From Spirochaetaceae bacterium (GTDB lineage: Bacteria > Spirochaetota > Spirochaetia > Treponematales > Treponemataceae): 52,967 bases of DNA. The stretch is from assembly GCA_017936665.1 (NCBI GenBank), contig JAGBFB010000007.1:1-52967 (forward strand), in the 5' to 3' direction. Position 1 is the first letter of the stretch. Every line of letters begins with the position of its first letter. The position numbers and the translations under genes were made by a program. The notes under the pieces were generated by a model. The model searched no databases. It had not been told where the DNA came from and worked only from the letters and a program-made list of their open reading frames with translations. Shown here piece by piece: positions 16,764 through 23,295 of the stretch.

Positions 16764-16973
16764 ATGTCTATTACTGTTGTTGAAGAAAAAATCAAATTAC
16801 TACCAGAAGCGTATTTAGATCTTTTAAACAATTATGTAGATGAGCTTCTCGAAAAATCTCAAAAAATACAATCATTAAAAGGTTCTTTGTCTAAAAATGC
16901 TAACGTAGAAATAATAGAAAAGGAAAAAGATGCTTGGTCTGCTGTAGCAAAGGAAAAATACATAAATGGCTAA
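16764..16973 (+). CDS. Putative antitoxin (DUF2281-like)
   Basis: A 69-residue protein. 'VEEKIKLLPEAYLDLLNNYVDELLEKSQ' resembles the helix of DUF2281/VapB-like antitoxins ('LPE..L.EV.DFV..L'). It overlaps the PIN-domain gene by 8 bases and has AAGGAGA upstream, so it is the expected antitoxin. The pair lies between two exact copies of one terminator. DNA-binding ability is not evident from the short N-terminus. Confidence 0.7.
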   Translation: MSITVVEEKIKLLPEAYLDLLNNYVDELLEKSQKIQSLKGSLSKNANVEIIEKEKDAWSAVAKEKYING

Positions 16974-17325
16974 ATTACTTGATGCAAATGCAATAATGCG
17001 TTTCCTTTTGAATGATATTCCCGAACAAGCAGATAAAACTGCAAATGTAATATATGACGGTGCTTTTACAAAAGAAATTGTAATTGCAGAAGTTGTTTAT
17101 GTTTTGAGTGGAGTTTATAATTATTCTCGTACAGAAATTTCTAATGAACTGTTAAAACTACTAGAGTTGATTTCTATAGAAAATGAAAATGTTTTAAAAG
17201 AAAGTTTAAATCTTTTCAAAGAATCATCTCTAGATTTTGTTGATTGTATTCTCATATCGTATAATAAAATTGAAAACATAGAGATTTTTTCTTTTGATAA
17301 GAAATTAAATAAAGGACTTGTTTAG
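16966..17325 (+). CDS. PIN-domain toxin
   Basis: A 119-residue putative RNase. 'MAKLLDANAIMRFLLNDIPEQ' carries the first PIN aspartate (D6) and the family pattern 'DANvilRfLl.D'. 'IAEVVYVLSGVYNYSR' supplies the conserved glutamate, and 'SSLDFVDCILISYNK' plus 'IFSFDKKLNK' the later acidic residues. It is translated together with the upstream antitoxin. This subgroup is distinct from the VapC at 14094, so the window has two unrelated PIN modules. Confidence 0.82.
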   Translation: MAKLLDANAIMRFLLNDIPEQADKTANVIYDGAFTKEIVIAEVVYVLSGVYNYSRTEISNELLKLLELISIENENVLKESLNLFKESSLDFVDCILISYNKIENIEIFSFDKKLNKGLV

Positions 17326-17383
17326 CTATTGTGATAAAAATATGTGGTTTCTGAGCGTAGCCGAAGGACCACAGGATTTGGAA

Positions 17384-17427
17384 AATCCCACTTTCTTCTT
17401 GTTTGTGCGAGAGGGAGTGGGATTTTT
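17384..17427 (+). terminator. Terminator, second copy of the 44-bp element
   Basis: Identical over 44 bases to 16669-16712, same orientation, with stem AATCCCACT/AGTGGGATT and T-run. Preceded, like the first copy, by a piece of the 62-bp repeat ('GAGCGTAGCCGAAGGACCA', compare 16619-16636). Confidence 0.85.
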
Positions 17428-17463
17428 AACATTTCTTTAACATCTATCCCATAGAATATCTTC

Positions 17464-17772
17464 ATGAAGAAAAAATATTTTGCTACTTTGCTGTTATTTT
17501 TCGCCTTTTCGTTTCCTATTTTTTCCCAGACTCAAAATACAAAACAGATTTTTTCTCTTGATACAGGATATTTGGCTAAAGGTTTAAAGAATAACGGTTG
17601 GGGAATTGGTTTTACATACGAGAGAGAGATTTTTAGAGGATTTTCTGTAAAGGGTGGTCTTTCTCACATGACCATGTGGATGAAAAATACTTTTGAATAT
17701 GGAATAAAAGTTAAATTTAGTTTAGGAAAGATAATTAAATTTTTTAAAGACTGGTCTACTATTAAACAATAA
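17464..17772 (+). CDS. Small outer-membrane-like protein
   Basis: A 102-residue exported protein. Residues 1-21 form a signal peptide ending 'FPIFSQ'. The mature part alternates polar and hydrophobic residues ('GWGIGFTYEREIFRGFSVKGGLSH', positions ~43-66), as in a few strands of a beta-barrel, and is too short for a full barrel. It could be a fragment or a small porin-like protein. There is no Shine-Dalgarno; TAGAAT (17452-17457) lies 6 bases before the ATG, so it may be leaderless, though no good -35 is seen. Confidence 0.65.
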   Translation: MKKKYFATLLLFFAFSFPIFSQTQNTKQIFSLDTGYLAKGLKNNGWGIGFTYEREIFRGFSVKGGLSHMTMWMKNTFEYGIKVKFSLGKIIKFFKDWSTIKQ

Positions 17773-17841
17773 ATAAAATTGTTAAAATTCACAAAAGAAC
17801 TTCAAAAAGTGATATGATTATAGTATCACTTTGGAGGATTT

Positions 17842-18354
17842 ATGAAAAAGAAAGTTTTTTTATCAATTTTAATACTTGCATTTATTTCAACTTTATTTGC
17901 ATCAGAAAAAATGAATCACAAGGATTTTTTTGTTTTGTTTAATCACAAAATTGGGGAAAGCTACAAACGAATTGAGCTTTTGAACAAAAAATCAAACCTT
18001 GCAAAACTCGGAAAAGAAGAAGTTATCGGAAAAATCAGTGGAAAAATAAATTATCAAGCAAAAATTAGTGGTTTAGGTGGATTGGTAACTATTCGCTACG
18101 AAAACTTTTGCGACGAAGAAGGCTGGGTTTTTAACGGAGAAATTATCACTCGTGGAAAAATTACTGGAAACGGCAATTTTGACGGAAAAGTTGATGTAAG
18201 TGGTTTGTACAATGCTTCTGTTTATTTTGATAAAGTTTTACTTGGAAATAATCTTCCATGTGAAGGTAGTTACGGAGTTGCTTTTGCAGGGGAATCTCGC
18301 TTAGAAGTGCCCTATCAAGCGTATTTTGAAAAATATACAGATACTTCTTTTTAA
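17842..18354 (+). CDS. Secreted protein of unknown function
   Basis: A 170-residue exported protein with a signal peptide (residues 1-20, cleavage after 'TLFA'). The mature part is rich in short strands with repeated 'GKI.GK', 'GKITGNGNFDGKVDVSGLY', suggesting a beta-rich fold. I do not recognise the family. The start has TTGGAGG. It sits with two other exported proteins on the same strand, each with its own leader, so they are likely separate transcription units. Confidence 0.7.
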   Translation: MKKKVFLSILILAFISTLFASEKMNHKDFFVLFNHKIGESYKRIELLNKKSNLAKLGKEEVIGKISGKINYQAKISGLGGLVTIRYENFCDEEGWVFNGEIITRGKITGNGNFDGKVDVSGLYNASVYFDKVLLGNNLPCEGSYGVAFAGESRLEVPYQAYFEKYTDTSF

Positions 18355-18410
18355 TCTTATTTTATTATGATATAATAACCTTTGTAACGAGGTTAAATAC
18401 AGAGGTTTTT

Positions 18411-19385
18411 ATGAAAAAGATTTTAATTTTATTTTGTGTTACTTTAATTTCAGTTTGTTTATTTGCTGTTGAAACTGATACAAGTTTTTCACTTGTAAGC
18501 GATTTTGCTTATTATCCAAAATCTGATTCCTTGGTTATGGGAAGTCCACAAGATGATATTTCTCGATTTTCTCCAATAAATGGATTTTTTTCTGCTGTAG
18601 AAGCTAGAGTTACAGGAAAATTATATTACAAAATTTCAATTCCATTTGGTGATAATCCCTTGGTGAGAGGAAACAATATCACACTTTCACCTGCTTTAGA
18701 AATTTCGCCAGTAACATTGATGCCTCAGTTTTTTGTAGCATTCACTCCAATTGCCTTTCTTAAATTTACTGCAAGTACAAAAGTAGGAACTGGTTGGAAT
18801 TTAATCGGAATCAATGGTATGGGTGATTTAGTAACTCCTGAGGTTGGATACGAAATTCTTCCTCCATTTAAGCATTATTTTTATGAATTTAGATTATCTA
18901 ATTTGTTTCAGTTTGATGTAGGTGCAATCATTTCTGGAGATTGGACTCATGTTGTAATGCAGGCTTCTTATGATATTTTGTACACAGGTTTATCTGGCGT
19001 TGAAAATGGAACTCCTTGGATTTGGCAAGCAAGTGGTGAAAAAGCAAATGGCTGGAATTATTATTCACAAATAATTTTAGGCTATCAGATGCCTTTAGTT
19101 TTGCAAACTGTTGGACTTCAGTTTGAATTAAGTGGATATTATGATTCATCAAGTTTTGATGTTGAGTATGCCAACTGGAATCCAGAATTTATGCGTGTAA
19201 ATATAAATCCAATTTGTATATTGAAATTTAATGATAAACATGCTCTTACAATTCAAACAAGATTTTCAAGTAGAAGAGGATTTTCTGCTGACAAGGGAGA
19301 ATCTGCTACAAATTTCAATTTAGATTACAATGGTAGAGAATGGTGGTTTGAAAGAATTGCATTTAGTTATGCGTACTCATTTTAG
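18411..19385 (+). CDS. Outer-membrane beta-barrel protein
   Basis: A 324-residue exported protein. Residues 1-19 are a signal peptide ('ISVCLFA'). The rest shows alternating strands with aromatic residues at the ends and a final 'RIAFSYAYSF', with the terminal phenylalanine typical of Bam-inserted barrels. A role in transport or structure cannot be told. AGAGG precedes the ATG. Family: Treponema-type uncharacterised outer-membrane protein. Confidence 0.7.
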   Translation: MKKILILFCVTLISVCLFAVETDTSFSLVSDFAYYPKSDSLVMGSPQDDISRFSPINGFFSAVEARVTGKLYYKISIPFGDNPLVRGNNITLSPALEISPVTLMPQFFVAFTPIAFLKFTASTKVGTGWNLIGINGMGDLVTPEVGYEILPPFKHYFYEFRLSNLFQFDVGAIISGDWTHVVMQASYDILYTGLSGVENGTPWIWQASGEKANGWNYYSQIILGYQMPLVLQTVGLQFELSGYYDSSSFDVEYANWNPEFMRVNINPICILKFNDKHALTIQTRFSSRRGFSADKGESATNFNLDYNGREWWFERIAFSYAYSF

Positions 19386-19400
19386 AATAGGAAATAAAAT

Positions 19401-19871
19401 ATGGCAATCGATAAAATAAAAAAATATTTTTCAAACTTCGGAATGGAAAATCGTATTTTAGAATTTGAAGTTTCTAGTGCAACTGTTGAACTTGCTGCTC
19501 TTGCACTAAATTGTGAACCTCAGCGTATTGCAAAAACTCTTTCGTTTCATGTAAATGATGATGTTGTTTTAATTGTAACTGCTGGAGATGCAAAAATTGA
19601 TAATTCTAAATACAAAGGATTTTTCAAGGCAAAGGCAAAAATGCTTAGTTTTGATGAAGCAGAAAGTTTGATAGGGCATGCAGTTGGTGGAGTTTGTCCT
19701 TTTGCAGTAAATGATGGCGTTAAAATTTTTCTTGATGAATCTTTAAAACGCTTTGAAACCGTTTATCCTGCTTGTGGAAGTTCTAATTCTGCGATTGAAT
19801 TAACTATCCCTGAACTTGAAAAATATTCAAACTATATTCAATGGATAGATGTTTGCAAAGTTGTAGAATAA
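19401..19871 (+). CDS. YbaK/EbsC-family aminoacyl-tRNA deacylase
   Basis: A 156-residue enzyme of the YbaK/ProX family that hydrolyses mischarged tRNA (such as Cys-tRNAPro) in trans. Seen motifs: 'CEPQRIAKTLSFHVNDDVVLIVTAGDAKID' (positions ~38-68), 'GHAVGGVCPFAV' and 'YPACGSSNSAIELTIPEL', which form the deacylase pocket. Start supported by AGGA. It follows the outer-membrane gene by 15 bases. Exact tRNA substrate unknown. Confidence 0.9.
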   Translation: MAIDKIKKYFSNFGMENRILEFEVSSATVELAALALNCEPQRIAKTLSFHVNDDVVLIVTAGDAKIDNSKYKGFFKAKAKMLSFDEAESLIGHAVGGVCPFAVNDGVKIFLDESLKRFETVYPACGSSNSAIELTIPELEKYSNYIQWIDVCKVVE

Positions 19872-19926
19872 AATCAAATTTTTAAACTACAAGTTTAATG
19901 ACAAACAAAAAAATATTAGTTATTAT

Positions 19927-20042
19927 TATAATGTAAAACAAATTAGCGTCTAGTTGGTGTGTATCTGACGCAAAAAATTTTATGTGGTGACTTTGTCACT
20001 GGTGCCGTTGGCATCCATTAATCTTAATGAAGGAGAACGCGT
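19927..20042 (+). promoter_or_regulatory. Structured leader of the XRE-rtcB unit
   Basis: A TATAAT at 19927-19932 predicts a start near 19939. The ~100-base leader then has successive hairpins: GCGTC-t-AG/CT-GACGC (19946-19971), GTGAC/GTCAC with a TTT loop (19987-19999), GGTGCC/GGCATCC with one bulge (20001-20016), and CATTA/TAATG (20016-20029) just before AAGGAG. No riboswitch class I know fits. Confidence 0.45.
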
Positions 20043-20294
20043 ATGTTCGCAAATTTTGCTGGTAATCCTAAAACAGAAAGAGATGTAGTTAAATCAGATT
20101 TTATATTGTTCATTGATGCGATGAAAACATGTGAGAATGACAACATGCAAGAAGTGCAACTTAAAAGCGTGATTCCTACATTTACAAAATTTAATGGACA
20201 AAACAGCACATGGCTAAAAGGACTAAAAATTAAAGCCATGAAATTTTTTGCAATAAGGAGAAAAAACCAATGGAGACTGTTAAGCACATCTTAA
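20043..20294 (+). CDS. Small hypothetical protein
   Basis: An 83-residue basic protein with no recognised domain. The case for translation is the strong AAGGAG 7 bases before the ATG and the overlap of its end with the start of the XRE gene (20270), whose own ribosome binding site lies within it. It contains 'DFILFIDAMKTCENDNMQEV' and a basic C-terminus ('KAMKFFAIRRKNQWR'). It may be a real small protein or a leader whose translation controls the downstream genes. Confidence 0.5.
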   Translation: MFANFAGNPKTERDVVKSDFILFIDAMKTCENDNMQEVQLKSVIPTFTKFNGQNSTWLKGLKIKAMKFFAIRRKNQWRLLSTS

Positions 20295-20608
20295 AACCAG
20301 TTATCAATCCAGAACAAACTGGTAACAAAATCAAAATCCTCAGAAAAGAAAATGGATTTACCGTCCATGAATTGCAAGATTTATTTGGGTTCGATTATCC
20401 ACAGGCAATTTATGCTTGGGAGAGTGGTAAAAGTATTCCTACCGTAGATAATCTTATTGTCCTTGCAAGATTATTTAGCGTGGCTTTAGACGAATTGATT
20501 TGCTATTCTCTTGTGGAAATTGAAACTTGTTGTTCAGACCACGCGGCAAATTGTATGAACAAAGATTTTGTAACATGTCAAAAATGTAAATTCAAAAAAT
20601 CTGCATAA
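20270..20608 (+). CDS. XRE-family regulator with cysteine-rich tail
   Basis: A 112-residue protein. Residues ~17-75 are an HTH ('GNKIKILRKENGFTVHELQD', 'YAWESGKSIPTVDNLIVLARLF'). The last 30 residues carry six Cys and a His ('CCSDHAANC', 'CQKCKFKK'), which could bind zinc or sense redox or damage. AAGGAG precedes the ATG. rtcB follows 38 bases downstream on the same strand, so this protein may control RNA repair. Confidence 0.8.
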   Translation: METVKHILKPVINPEQTGNKIKILRKENGFTVHELQDLFGFDYPQAIYAWESGKSIPTVDNLIVLARLFSVALDELICYSLVEIETCCSDHAANCMNKDFVTCQKCKFKKSA

Positions 20609-20646
20609 AGTGAAAATGCAAATTGATTTTTTATGGAGGATTTAAA

Positions 20647-21912
20647 ATGAAAACTGTTGAAGGAATTTATAATACAGCAAAAATTTTTACAGATGTAATT
20701 GATGAAAAATCTTTAGAGCAAGTAAAAGTTTTGTGTAATCAAGAATTTGTATCTGGACAAAAAATTCGTCTTATGCCTGATATTCACGCAGGAGCTGGTT
20801 GCACAATCGGAACTACCATGACCATCGGAGATAAAATTGTTCCAAACCTTGTGGGCGTGGATATTGGCTGCGGAATGGAAACTCTTGTTATCAGGGCAAA
20901 AAGTGAAGTTAGTAAGCACTTCAATCCTGAGGAACTAGATAAAATCATTCGGAAAAATATTCCATCAGGCAGGGATATCAGAAAGTTTCCTCATAGACTT
21001 GCAAAGGAAGTTGACTTTGAGAAAGTGCGAGGAAAGTTTGATAGGCACCGAGCTTGGCTTAGCGTTGGAACATTAGGTGGCGGAAATCACTTTATTGAGG
21101 CAGACAGAGATGATGATGGAAACTTGTATATCGTTGTTCACTCTGGAAGTCGCCATGCTGGAAAAGAAATTGCTGAATATTATCAAGAAGAGGCTTGGAA
21201 ACAGTTAAACGGAAATTCTGAGGCAGAAATTGCAGCTTTTATTCAAAAGTTAAAATCAGAAGGTCGTGAAACTGAGATTCAAGAGGAGCTAAAAAAGCTA
21301 AAATCCCAAGTAATAACAAACATTCCAAAGGATTTAGCCTACGTTAGCGGTCAACTTTTTGATGATTACATCAACGATATGAAAATTATGCAGCATTTTG
21401 CAGAAATGAATCGAAAGGCTATGATTGAAACAATTTCTATCGGGCTTCACATCAAGGAAAGTGATATTATCGAAAGATTTACCACAATTCACAATTATAT
21501 CTACATTCCAGATGCTGAAAATCCAGAAAATGAAAATGGTGAAACTGAAAAGGGCCAGATGATTTTGCGGAAAGGTGCTGTGAGCGCCCAAAAAGGCGAA
21601 AAACTTTTGATTCCTATCAATATGAGAGACGGAAGTCTAGTTTGTATTGGAAAGGGAAACGAAGATTGGAACTGTTCAGCTCCCCACGGAGCAGGCCGAG
21701 TTATGAGCCGAATGAAAGCCAAAAAAGAGTTGAATTTGGCAGATTTCAAAGCAGAAATGAAAGGTGTTTGGTCAAGCACGGTGAACAAATCCACTTTAGA
21801 CGAAGCCCCAATGGCTTACAAAACCATGGAGGATATCGTAGAAAATATCGGAGAAACCGCAGAAATCGTGAAAATTATCAAACCAATCTATAATTTCAAA
21901 GCGGCTGAATAA
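20647..21912 (+). CDS. rtcB: RtcB-family RNA ligase
   Basis: A 421-residue GTP- and Mn-dependent ligase that joins 2',3'-cyclic phosphate or 3'-phosphate to 5'-OH RNA ends. The ATG at 20647 follows TGGAGG; the frame extends upstream to 20623 without support. Metal-site motifs: 'MPDIHAGAG', 'VGVDIGCGM' (D72, C75), 'GTLGGGNHFIE', 'VHSGSRHAGKEIAEYY'. The guanylylated histidine is H347 in 'CSAPHGAGRVMSR'. 'GKGNEDWNCSAP' and 'DEAPMAYK' are also conserved. No archease or RtcA gene adjoins. It lies behind an XRE regulator and a structured leader, suggesting control by damage or stress. Confidence 0.93.
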   Translation: MKTVEGIYNTAKIFTDVIDEKSLEQVKVLCNQEFVSGQKIRLMPDIHAGAGCTIGTTMTIGDKIVPNLVGVDIGCGMETLVIRAKSEVSKHFNPEELDKIIRKNIPSGRDIRKFPHRLAKEVDFEKVRGKFDRHRAWLSVGTLGGGNHFIEADRDDDGNLYIVVHSGSRHAGKEIAEYYQEEAWKQLNGNSEAEIAAFIQKLKSEGRETEIQEELKKLKSQVITNIPKDLAYVSGQLFDDYINDMKIMQHFAEMNRKAMIETISIGLHIKESDIIERFTTIHNYIYIPDAENPENENGETEKGQMILRKGAVSAQKGEKLLIPINMRDGSLVCIGKGNEDWNCSAPHGAGRVMSRMKAKKELNLADFKAEMKGVWSSTVNKSTLDEAPMAYKTMEDIVENIGETAEIVKIIKPIYNFKAAE

Positions 21913-21934
21913 CAAAATAAATGATAATAATTTT

Positions 21935-21972
21935 AAGAGATTTTGCTTTAAGGCAAGTAAAATCTCTTTTTT
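21935..21972 (+). terminator. Terminator of rtcB
   Basis: AAGAGATTTT (21935-21944) pairs with AAAATCTCTT (21959-21968), with a further CTT/AAG match inside, followed by a T-run to 21972. Confidence 0.9.
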
Positions 21973-22032
21973 ATTTTAAATTGATTAGTGTTTTATGATA
22001 TAATGATGTAATTATTTTTACAGAGGTGAATT

Positions 22033-22335
22033 ATGGTAAAACATATTATTTTGTGGACTTTAAAAGAAATGTCTGAAGATGAAAAAACAAAGGTAAAGGC
22101 AGAAATTAAAACTGGTCTTGAATCTTTAGCAGGGAAAATTCCAGGACTTTTAGAAATTAAGGTGGTGACAGAAGGCAGACTAGAAACTTCAAATGCTGAT
22201 GTGATGTTAGATTCAAGTTTTGAATCTTTTGAGGCGTTGAAAACTTACGCAAAACATCCAGAACATGTGAAAGTTGCTGATGAAAAAGTGCGTCCTTTTA
22301 CTGCAAACAGAAGTTGCTTAGATTTCGAGGTGTAA
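22033..22335 (+). CDS. Dabb-family (stress-responsive A/B barrel) protein
   Basis: A 100-residue protein that begins 'MVKHIILWTLKEMSEDEK' and has 'LAGKIPGLLEIKVVTEG' and 'YAKHPEHVKVADEKVRPF', the defining pattern of the Dabb dimeric alpha/beta barrel. Members range from plant stress proteins to small enzymes; no reaction is assigned in bacteria like this. Start supported by AGAGGTG. Confidence 0.9.
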   Translation: MVKHIILWTLKEMSEDEKTKVKAEIKTGLESLAGKIPGLLEIKVVTEGRLETSNADVMLDSSFESFEALKTYAKHPEHVKVADEKVRPFTANRSCLDFEV

Positions 22336-22411
22336 ACTTTAGTAAGCCTCGAAACAAAGGTGAATCAAGGGCTAGAACAAAGCGTCCCTTGACCACCTGT
22401 ATTATGAGGTG
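22323..22411 (+). promoter_or_regulatory. Inverted repeats with competing helices
   Basis: TTTCGAGG (22323-22330) pairs with CCTCGAAA (22347-22354). AGGTG (22358-22362) and TCAAGGG (22365-22371) pair with CACCT (22394-22398) and CCCTTGA (22386-22392) in one long stem. A second AGGTG at 22407-22411 can compete for the same CACCT. The block lies between the Dabb stop and the broken GIY-YIG gene. Confidence 0.5.
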
Positions 22412-22434
22412 TAAAGAAGTATGGAGAATAAAAC

Positions 22435-23295
22435 ATGAAAACATCGAAACAAGGACATGTATATATTTTAGAATCAGAAAATTGTGATTGTATAAAAATT
22501 GGTGGAACTGATTTTCCACCTACAAAAAGATTAAAAGAAATAAATGAAACAGAACCTTATAAAAGTTTGGGGCCATGGGTAATTGTAGATTTTAGGGAAG
22601 TATTAGATTGGAGAATGGTAGAACATAATCTTCATTACAGATTTAGAGATTTTCAAAATAAGAAAATATTAAATCAAAAAGAGCTATTTCATGTTTCAAA
22701 GAATATTGCTATTTAAGCATTAGAAACAATAGATCCAAACGAAATAGTGTATAAACCAAAAATTGATAGAATGTTCCAAGATGAAAGATTTCTTAATTAT
22801 ATTTCGGAATTATTCTTTTTTTCAGGTTTGATACATAGTATTGATATTCAAGGGATTTGGACTCTTTCAATCTATACACAAACAGGATGTGGAAGATTTT
22901 TTACAATTAATATTGGACCTCACGAAGTAGCATTTAGTACATTTACAAAAAATGAAATACCTCCGTTAAACTATATAGTTGTTGATAAAATGATTTTAGA
23001 TCCAGAGTTTTCTGAAATTAGAAAATGGATTATAGAACATAACGGGGAAATAGGAAAAGCAAATTATAAAACAGCTACAGATCGTGCCTATTATATTTCT
23101 TTTAATTCTGATTTTAAAACAGCATCAGAATTATTACAATTACCAGGTTTTAAAAAAGCAATAATATCATATTGGTATGATGCCTTAATTTCCAAAAGAA
23201 ATGATTGTAAATTAAGCACATATGAAAGATACCATAACTACAATGCAGTATCAAAGATTGTTTCTTATATAAAAAACAATAAAAATATATATTAA
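22435..23295 (+). pseudogene. GIY-YIG (T5orf172-type) nuclease gene with in-frame stop
   Basis: Starts at ATG 22435 with TGGAG upstream. 'GHVYILESENCDCIKIGGTD' and 'PPTKRLKEINE' are a GIY-YIG core of the T5orf172/MUG113 type. A TAA at 22714-22716 stops it after 93 residues, but the same frame continues ('ALETIDPNEIVYKPKIDRMF') for another 193 codons to 23295. A single nonsense change in a ~286-residue gene is the simplest reading. The distal part has no recognised domain. A distal product from an internal GTG at 22747 is possible but lacks a ribosome binding site. Confidence 0.75.

Follow-up and report, generated by a model that had tools for sequence, protein, structure and literature searches.

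We analysed a 52,967-nucleotide stretch of DNA (the window; contig JAGBFB010000007.1 of assembly GCA_017936665.1, positions 1 to 52,967 of the forward strand), part of a 2.58 Mb Treponemataceae genome, which carries a module made of a structured leader, a small open reading frame (ORF) and a gene for an XRE-family regulator, followed by rtcB. Module and rtcB together span 19882-21968, from an operator through a promoter-like region, the leader, the small ORF, XRE and rtcB to a terminator-like hairpin, and the leader is present as a single copy in the genome. The features are as follows (P1 and P2 are local hairpins of the leader, H_A and H_B predicted long-range helices):

19882-19902, + strand: palindromic operator TTAAACT-ACA-AGTTTAATGAC, predicted as a probable XRE binding site; exact match, overlapping the predicted -35
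19898-19932, + strand: promoter-like region, ATGACA - 17 - TATTAT (19921-19926), plus TATAAT at 19927-19932; from a consensus scan only
19946-19971, + strand: P1 hairpin, GCGTC/GACGC, covariation at 6/8 pairs; its 5' arm and loop double as the predicted left strand of H_B
19970-19984, + strand: predicted left strand of H_A, GCAAAAAATTTTATG, partner 20237-20251
19987-19999, + strand: hairpin insert GTGAC-TTT-GTCAC, window only, missing from the 27 other leaders of alignment A1 (see below)
20001-20015, + strand: P2 hairpin, GGTGCC-GTT-GGCATC, covariation at 6/6 pairs
20017-20028, + strand: ATTA/TAAT inverted repeat within conserved UUAUCUU-type sequence
20029-20041, + strand: Shine-Dalgarno region of the small ORF, predicted partner 20167-20179
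about 20030-20035, + strand: AAGGAG, directly after the last inverted repeat
20043-20294, + strand: small ORF, 83 amino acids (83 codons), overlapping the XRE start by 25 bases
20167-20179, + strand: predicted anti-Shine-Dalgarno segment within the small ORF, pairing probabilities mostly 0.96-0.99
20237-20251, + strand: right strand of H_A, CATGAAATTTTTTGC, from fold prediction
20255-20277, + strand: Shine-Dalgarno sequence and start codon of XRE, of which 20266-20270 and 20274-20277 form the predicted right strand of H_B
20270-20608, + strand: XRE-family regulator, 112 amino acids, Cys-rich tail, -KKSA end, Pfam HTH_3 1.1e-9
20647-21912, + strand: rtcB, 421 amino acids, starting 38 bases past the XRE stop codon, Pfam RtcB 2.3e-62
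21935-21968, + strand: terminator-like hairpin 3' of rtcB

A sequence-only reading of this DNA had described a TATAAT, a leader of four hairpins with AAGGAG beside the last, a first ATG, a small ORF, an XRE protein with a cysteine-rich tail and rtcB, and the coordinates of all these hold, the first ATG (20043) lying 110 bases past the TATAAT and the AAGGAG adjoining the last inverted repeat. The operator and the long-range pairing had been missed.

That reading took the leader to head an XRE-rtcB unit, and proposed a search for covariation of its stems across Treponema rtcB loci. Our scan for rtcB returned 80 loci; among the rtcB loci fetched, an XRE relative lies immediately 5' of the gene only in the window, L017 and L035 (L numbers denote loci), and in many Treponema loci a WYL-like gene (named by eye) stands 5' of rtcB. 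When 88 loci (the 80 plus 8 from another scan, with some places duplicated and L010-L016 not included) were searched for the leader, matches with E < 1e-7 were obtained in two, L002 (which is the window) and L017, and a match in L007 (26 bits, E 0.033) was set aside. This count rules the element out as an rtcB leader, and the proposed check would have failed because most rtcB loci lack it.

Relatives of the XRE protein, on the other hand, occur in 191 of 274 family genomes (tblastn found none in viral contigs), and 5' of XRE genes a common order recurs: operator, promoter, P1, CAAAAA, P2, UUAUCUU, ribosome site, small ORF, XRE. A covariance model of the leader (R1) finds it in 40 of the 274 Treponemataceae genomes, or 38 after the weak matches were read, and the small ORF and XRE, preceded by this operator and leader, are likewise found together in 38/274. 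Four of the weak matches (L216, L217, L218, L243) were taken as false, with no XRE there, and a fifth, L215, is a genuine module with inserts. An order-level search with R1 matched 10 of 194 genomes, the sole match outside the family being a false one. Judged by this distribution, the leader is an element of the XRE gene and not of rtcB.

Evolutionarily, the two genes at this locus appear to have different histories: the nucleotide identity of the window to L017 is 95.3% over rtcB and 73.7% over XRE, and a 24-base operator is the sole conserved block 5' of XRE. One reading of these sequences is that L017, from the genome of another genus, reflects either a recent transfer of rtcB or an exchange of its regulatory module. 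As a separate observation, rtcB loci without XRE (L018, L019, L020) seem to carry another leader ~30-160 bases 5' of rtcB, closed by AAGGTTC/GAACCTT (L018, L019) or AAGATTC/GAATCTT (L020) and covarying by eye, and L018, L021 and L024 have Y RNA-like matches, short of the gathering score, 3' of rtcB, accompanied in L018 by a tRNA.

To evaluate the hairpins, we aligned 28 leaders gathered via XRE genes (A1; L109, L132, L100, L165 and L107 stayed outside it, and L120 was omitted as a duplicate of L116). Across P1 and P2 jointly, 81.4% of alignment cells are paired (28-43% with slid partners), and two-sided changes are seen in 52 cells (shuffles 22.1, slid partners 10-29). Such changes occur at 6 of the 8 pairs of P1 and at all 6 pairs of P2, in which 91.1% of cells are paired and the loop GTT is fixed in many copies. 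The arm sequences of P1 clearly differ from clade to clade and its register shifts between clades, the helix being retained in most single sequences when the register is left free. All four hairpins noted earlier are present in the window, and two of them, P1 and P2, are conserved and covarying; GTGAC/GTCAC belongs to an insert of ~22 bases between P1 and P2 that is unique among the A1 leaders, and ATTA/TAAT is conserved as sequence in the aligned leaders with no conserved helix. The covariation that the earlier proposal would have sought at rtcB loci is found, for P1 and P2, across XRE leaders. The leader by itself is not unusually stable (z -1.29, with 16 of 200 shuffles as good or better), which rules it out as an exceptionally stable fold on its own. 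Rfam 15 gave no match at the gathering score over the whole window, nor any leader match in 7 module loci even with E up to 5, in agreement with the earlier view that no known riboswitch class fits. From these alignments, the leader is best described as a conserved cis-regulatory RNA, a structured element without an Rfam 15 match.

The tests of the small ORF and of the fold used 22 representative loci for the reading frame, 29 for fold z, 27 for ensemble folds and 18 for codon shuffling. The frame is open from its start to XRE in 22/22 (no stops, vs. 96 and 129 in the other two frames), a result that survives correction for three frames, the frame having been chosen as the longest ATG ORF with a ribosome site preferred, which favours openness. 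It ends 19-71 bases past the XRE start, and so overlaps XRE, in every representative, and gaps between close relatives are mostly multiples of three. The peptide has changed fast: its identity is usually well under that of XRE, in the window's own clade 17-25% where the XREs are 71-75% identical, and between L113 and L114 it is 77%, with 98% identity over the 60 bases of leader ahead of the ORF and 100% between the XRE proteins. At this level of identity in the window's clade no conserved ribosome-arrest peptide is seen. An amino-acid sampler, enriched for all 20 residues, is also unsupported (17-20 distinct residues vs. a background of ~17-19).

A conserved frame with its own Shine-Dalgarno sequence and a frequent M-F start could also mean that the ORF encodes a functional small protein, such as an antirepressor, with RNA structure secondary. 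We consider this quite improbable given the peptide divergence just described and the lack of a Pfam family for the product, and since the part conserved at its C-terminal end falls on the XRE ribosome site and the partner of H_A. The folding energies point the same way, with a mean z of -0.07 for the ORF alone and -1.31 for the leader, which falls to -3.42 when the two are joined. In the window, the 345-base unit from leader to XRE start reaches z -3.82, with none of 100 shuffles as good.

In the predicted structure, two helices bring the leader back, across some 300 bases, to where the small ORF ends and XRE begins. In H_A, the leader's CAAAAA run pairs with a TTTTTG run ~20-30 bases 5' of the XRE start (19970-19984 with 20237-20251 in the window), and H_B ties up the XRE start codon and ribosome site with the P1 5' arm and loop (19948-19951 with 20274-20277, and 19954-19958 with 20266-20270). 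In the computed folds H_B and P1 are mutually exclusive, because the 5' arm of P1 is itself the left strand of H_B. A third helix, H_C (UUAUCUU with AAGAUAA-type segments), appears only in single folds. For each locus, we compared the pairing of the leader segment with its own partner and with the partners of other clades, both optimised (30 of 32 loci in 12 clades, L109 and L132 being excluded for want of a usable anchor); for H_A the own partner was better in all 12 clades, and for H_B in 11 of them. Explicit counts of standard pairs also exceed row shuffles (290 vs. 257.4 for H_A, 277 vs. 223.7 for H_B), although these are biased upwards by registers picked to favour the own partner, and we rely on the swap test instead. 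As far as sequence comparison can tell, the two strands of each long-range helix co-evolve.

Ensemble folds suggest what this pairing does to the XRE start. The average full transcript has 12.9 pairs in H_B, 9.9 in H_A and 0.09 in P1, with both helices forming in 25 of 27 loci, whereas the leader alone has on average 7.3 P1 pairs. The XRE ribosome site is unpaired with a probability of 0.33 with the leader and 0.54 without it, and is more open without it in 24/27. Codon shuffling of the small ORF leaves this accessibility as it was (0.38 vs. 0.39), so that hiding of the site by the ORF interior is unsupported; the hiding partner is the leader. The ORF's own Shine-Dalgarno sequence, by comparison, is unpaired at 0.26 vs. 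0.41 after codon shuffling, and tends to pair with ORF sequence. Translation of the small ORF, which the sequence-only reading had raised as one possible means of control, is very probably part of the mechanism.

These folds also bear on whether the leader is instead a ligand-binding riboswitch or a site for a protein (XRE, RtcB or another factor), with the small ORF incidental. The conserved and covarying P1 and P2 and the GTT loop fixed in many copies of P2 would suit such an element, as would the occurrence of the same operator at XREs with other leader types. Yet the near-invariant leader bases, CAAAAA and GGTT, are explained by their pairing with distant segments, no other compact conserved pocket was seen, the small-ORF frame is maintained and Rfam holds no match, all of which makes this an unlikely account; nothing points to the RtcB substrate, suggested earlier, as a ligand. 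Less likely still, to the point of being hard to credit, is an RNA thermometer or general structural block opened by temperature with no need of translation: the helices over the ribosome site are indeed AU-rich, but H_A and H_B average more than 20 pairs, many for a thermometer, and the overlapping open frame would be superfluous.

The XRE protein of the window matches Pfam HTH_3 (1.1e-9) and HTH_19 (7.9e-8), and scores 35.8 bits against the NCBIfam RstR-like model, under its cut-off of 80. Its terminal alanine is invariant (alignment A2), mostly as -SA or -TA, and it is tempting to speculate that this residue is a degradation signal; many members also have a Cys/His cluster at the C-terminus, for which metal binding is possible. 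Two XRE genes (L179, L215) carry in-frame short-repeat inserts (peptide like WDRERRL..SESPSSCAA) resembling coding palindromic repeats. The operator occurs once in the window against an expectation of 0.03, and TTAAACT-N3-AGTTTAATGAC with at most two mismatches is found within 480 bases 5' in 44 of 69 XRE loci and in none of 67 downstream controls. Some clades have TTAAAG...CTTTAA instead, a symmetrical change of the operator. Such a palindrome placed over the -35 is consistent with an XRE that would bind and repress its own promoter. Other XRE clades (L136-L163) combine the operator with different leaders, also rich in hairpins, and with small ORFs ending short of the XRE start.

Thus, we have computed covarying hairpins, co-varying long-range helices, their exclusion of P1, an open overlapping frame, an operator and recurring RNA-repair genes (below), and we read leader, small ORF and XRE as an RNA switch, gated by translation, that controls how an autorepressor is made and through which failed translation would derepress repair, a reading to which we give a probability of roughly 0.6. 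In the untranslated transcript the leader would lie folded back over the small ORF, with H_B covering the ribosome site and start codon of XRE so that no XRE is translated. A ribosome reading the small ORF must cross both helices because the ORF stop is 25 bases past the XRE start, and in the cell its passage would open H_A and H_B, upon which the released 5' arm would snap into P1 and, as a latch, hold the XRE start open. The XRE then made would bind the TTAAACT-N3-AGTTTAA operator over the -35 and repress its own operon, here including rtcB. Should translation fail, for instance through cut tRNAs, the ORF would not be crossed, the presumably short-lived XRE would not be renewed and the RNA-repair genes would be transcribed.

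Genes of RNA repair or rescue lie downstream in 14 of the 35 modules with a small ORF. The module leads into rtcB in the window (where the product carries the RtcB domain) and in L099, into a DRB0094-type RNA ligase in 5 loci (NCBIfam 145.3, just under the cut-off of 151.15, and passing Pfam), and at L127 into RlaP and then a WYL-like gene, RtcB and DUF2828. It precedes DUF2828 with Y RNA-like and tRNA-like RNAs at L118 (the Y RNA match scores 46.8 bits, short of the gathering score of 69), PARG and ArfB at L110, and a metallophosphoesterase and ArfB at L111 and L114 and, after an unknown gene, at L120, the ArfB assignment being above the NCBIfam cut-off; L116 has the same unknown gene as L120, after which the contig ends. 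Going by co-occurrence and the literature, the phosphoesterase and PARG genes may serve RNA repair as well. The repair or rescue genes differ between four separate small-ORF lineages, each of which heads a set of its own. Of the earlier idea of RNA-level control of RNA repair there remains a conserved cis-regulatory leader that often heads RNA-repair operons, without its being a leader of rtcB. At L205, PARG, the leader module, RlaP, a WYL-like gene, RtcB, tRNA-like and Y RNA-like RNAs and DUF2828 stand within 11 kb. Neither RtcA nor RtcR is among the nine gene products scanned in the window (16966-22713; the rest of the genome was not searched), and a small ORF followed by a PIN-domain protein at 16764-17325 is a possible toxin-antitoxin pair.

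A number of observations count against the translation-gated switch or qualify its basis. Its direction (sign) and its signal are ones that we infer. The association of leader and XRE is partly circular, in that the 28 A1 leaders were found through XRE; 8 further true leaders came from R1 alone and were read, with an XRE start in 5 (L170, which is L221, L179, L184, L185 and L215) and a contig edge in the remaining 3 (L171, L176, L188). The small ORF is broken in L185 and interrupted in L110. Downstream control stretches also out-fold their shuffles in the 29-locus comparison (mean z -1.76), pairing of the Shine-Dalgarno region with the ORF interior was weaker in the swap test (8/12 clades), and in the model L107 lacks H_B and L112 both helices, both having leader inserts and L112 an anchor that is probably misplaced. 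Lastly, of the 35 modules, 12 head co-directional genes unlinked to RNA repair, another 8 are followed by a convergent gene and one ends at a contig edge.

The unrelated neighbours, about as common as repair ones (12 vs. 14), would fit a switch that merely couples XRE synthesis to small-ORF translation, keeping the repressor low and matched to its mRNA, and senses nothing, the repair genes being cargo from gene transfer; rtcB itself has moved, as its identity between the window and L017 indicates. We regard this as the less probable course, although the strongest of the alternatives, since it leaves unexplained why four small-ORF lineages each have a different repair or rescue set, and why operators precede two phosphoesterase genes elsewhere in the window's genome. 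There, operators with 1-2 mismatches are clustered on contig C4, before two metallophosphoesterase genes, one of them a homologue of the phosphoesterase that XRE operons carry elsewhere, and before a gene known near XRE operons elsewhere; a reversed-pattern control gave 8 matches against 12 real ones when up to 2 mismatches were allowed, so that weight goes only to the 5 matches with 0-1 mismatch. The array (G000:C4:28000-38100, L234) stands before metallophosphoesterases and other genes, on a contig with ParA-like and replication-initiator-like ORFs (by eye), and possibly represents an RNA-repair regulon on a plasmid-like element.

Beyond the switch itself, we tentatively propose, at somewhat less than even odds, that the module is a sensor of translation integrity. 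The small ORF would be selected for translatability and pairing and not for its peptide, and each completed passage would license a single round of XRE synthesis, the repressor being short-lived; cleaved tRNAs or stalled ribosomes would then turn on repair and rescue genes (RtcB, RNA ligase, RlaP, Y RNA, ArfB), the same regulators and operator forming a family-wide RNA-damage regulon of Treponemataceae, parallel but unrelated to RtcR. If true, a cell could measure translation failure and summon RNA repair without a dedicated ligand sensor. It would also explain how a small ORF can be fast-changing yet open, as it is the RNA and the passage of the ribosome that would count. The analysis further defines a structured RNA element without an Rfam 15 match, a probable operator and a candidate RNA-repair regulon in Treponemataceae.

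Among known systems, overlap of the leader ORF with the regulated start (22/22) and a hidden ribosome site (25/27 computed folds) place the module, as modelled, with translation-coupled leader-ORF switches. In mok/hok of plasmid R1 and related type I toxin mRNAs, a leader ORF overlaps the regulated start, translation is coupled and a long-range fold-back hides the ribosome sites. The overlapping ORF and, as predicted, the coupling and the fold-back are shared with our module, whereas hok is a toxin gene controlled by an antisense RNA and the gene here is an XRE regulator; by analogy, the module would work like mok/hok and yet is not of that family. In erm-type attenuation, translation of an upstream ORF picks between two exclusive stems and thereby exposes a downstream ribosome site, for which a stalling peptide is needed. 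In the module, too, the ORF would decide between exclusive stems, but there is no conserved peptide, and passage instead of stalling would open the start.

The WYL-rtcB loci of other Treponema (L018, L019, L021 and others) have rtcB in the same family, with a WYL-like gene replacing XRE and no R1 leader. The rtcBA RNA repair operon is controlled by RtcR, a sigma-54 activator whose CARF domain binds tRNA fragments (PMC7790460); it resembles the module as a regulated repair operon around RtcB, Y RNA and tRNA damage, and differs in that an XRE and an RNA switch stand here, with neither RtcA nor RtcR among the adjacent genes scanned. Our literature searches, within the library covered, found nothing that joins XRE, leader peptide, translational coupling and repressor, and nothing related on RtcB in Treponema. 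Candidate structured RNAs near HTH-XRE genes, some in Treponema, have been described from human microbiomes (PMC8040213), and the element of the window may overlap one of them. Closest in logic is TrcR of Anabaena, an autoregulated transcriptional repressor that acts on translation-related genes. Chloramphenicol lowers the level of TrcR and its regulon rises, and the authors only infer some translational or post-translational control (PMC10272220). TrcR is a ribbon-helix-helix protein and not an XRE, and the sections consulted mention no leader RNA switch; as would happen in the switch proposed here, however, the repressor level falls with translational stress and the regulon is derepressed, so that TrcR offers, by analogy, a published precedent for its logic.

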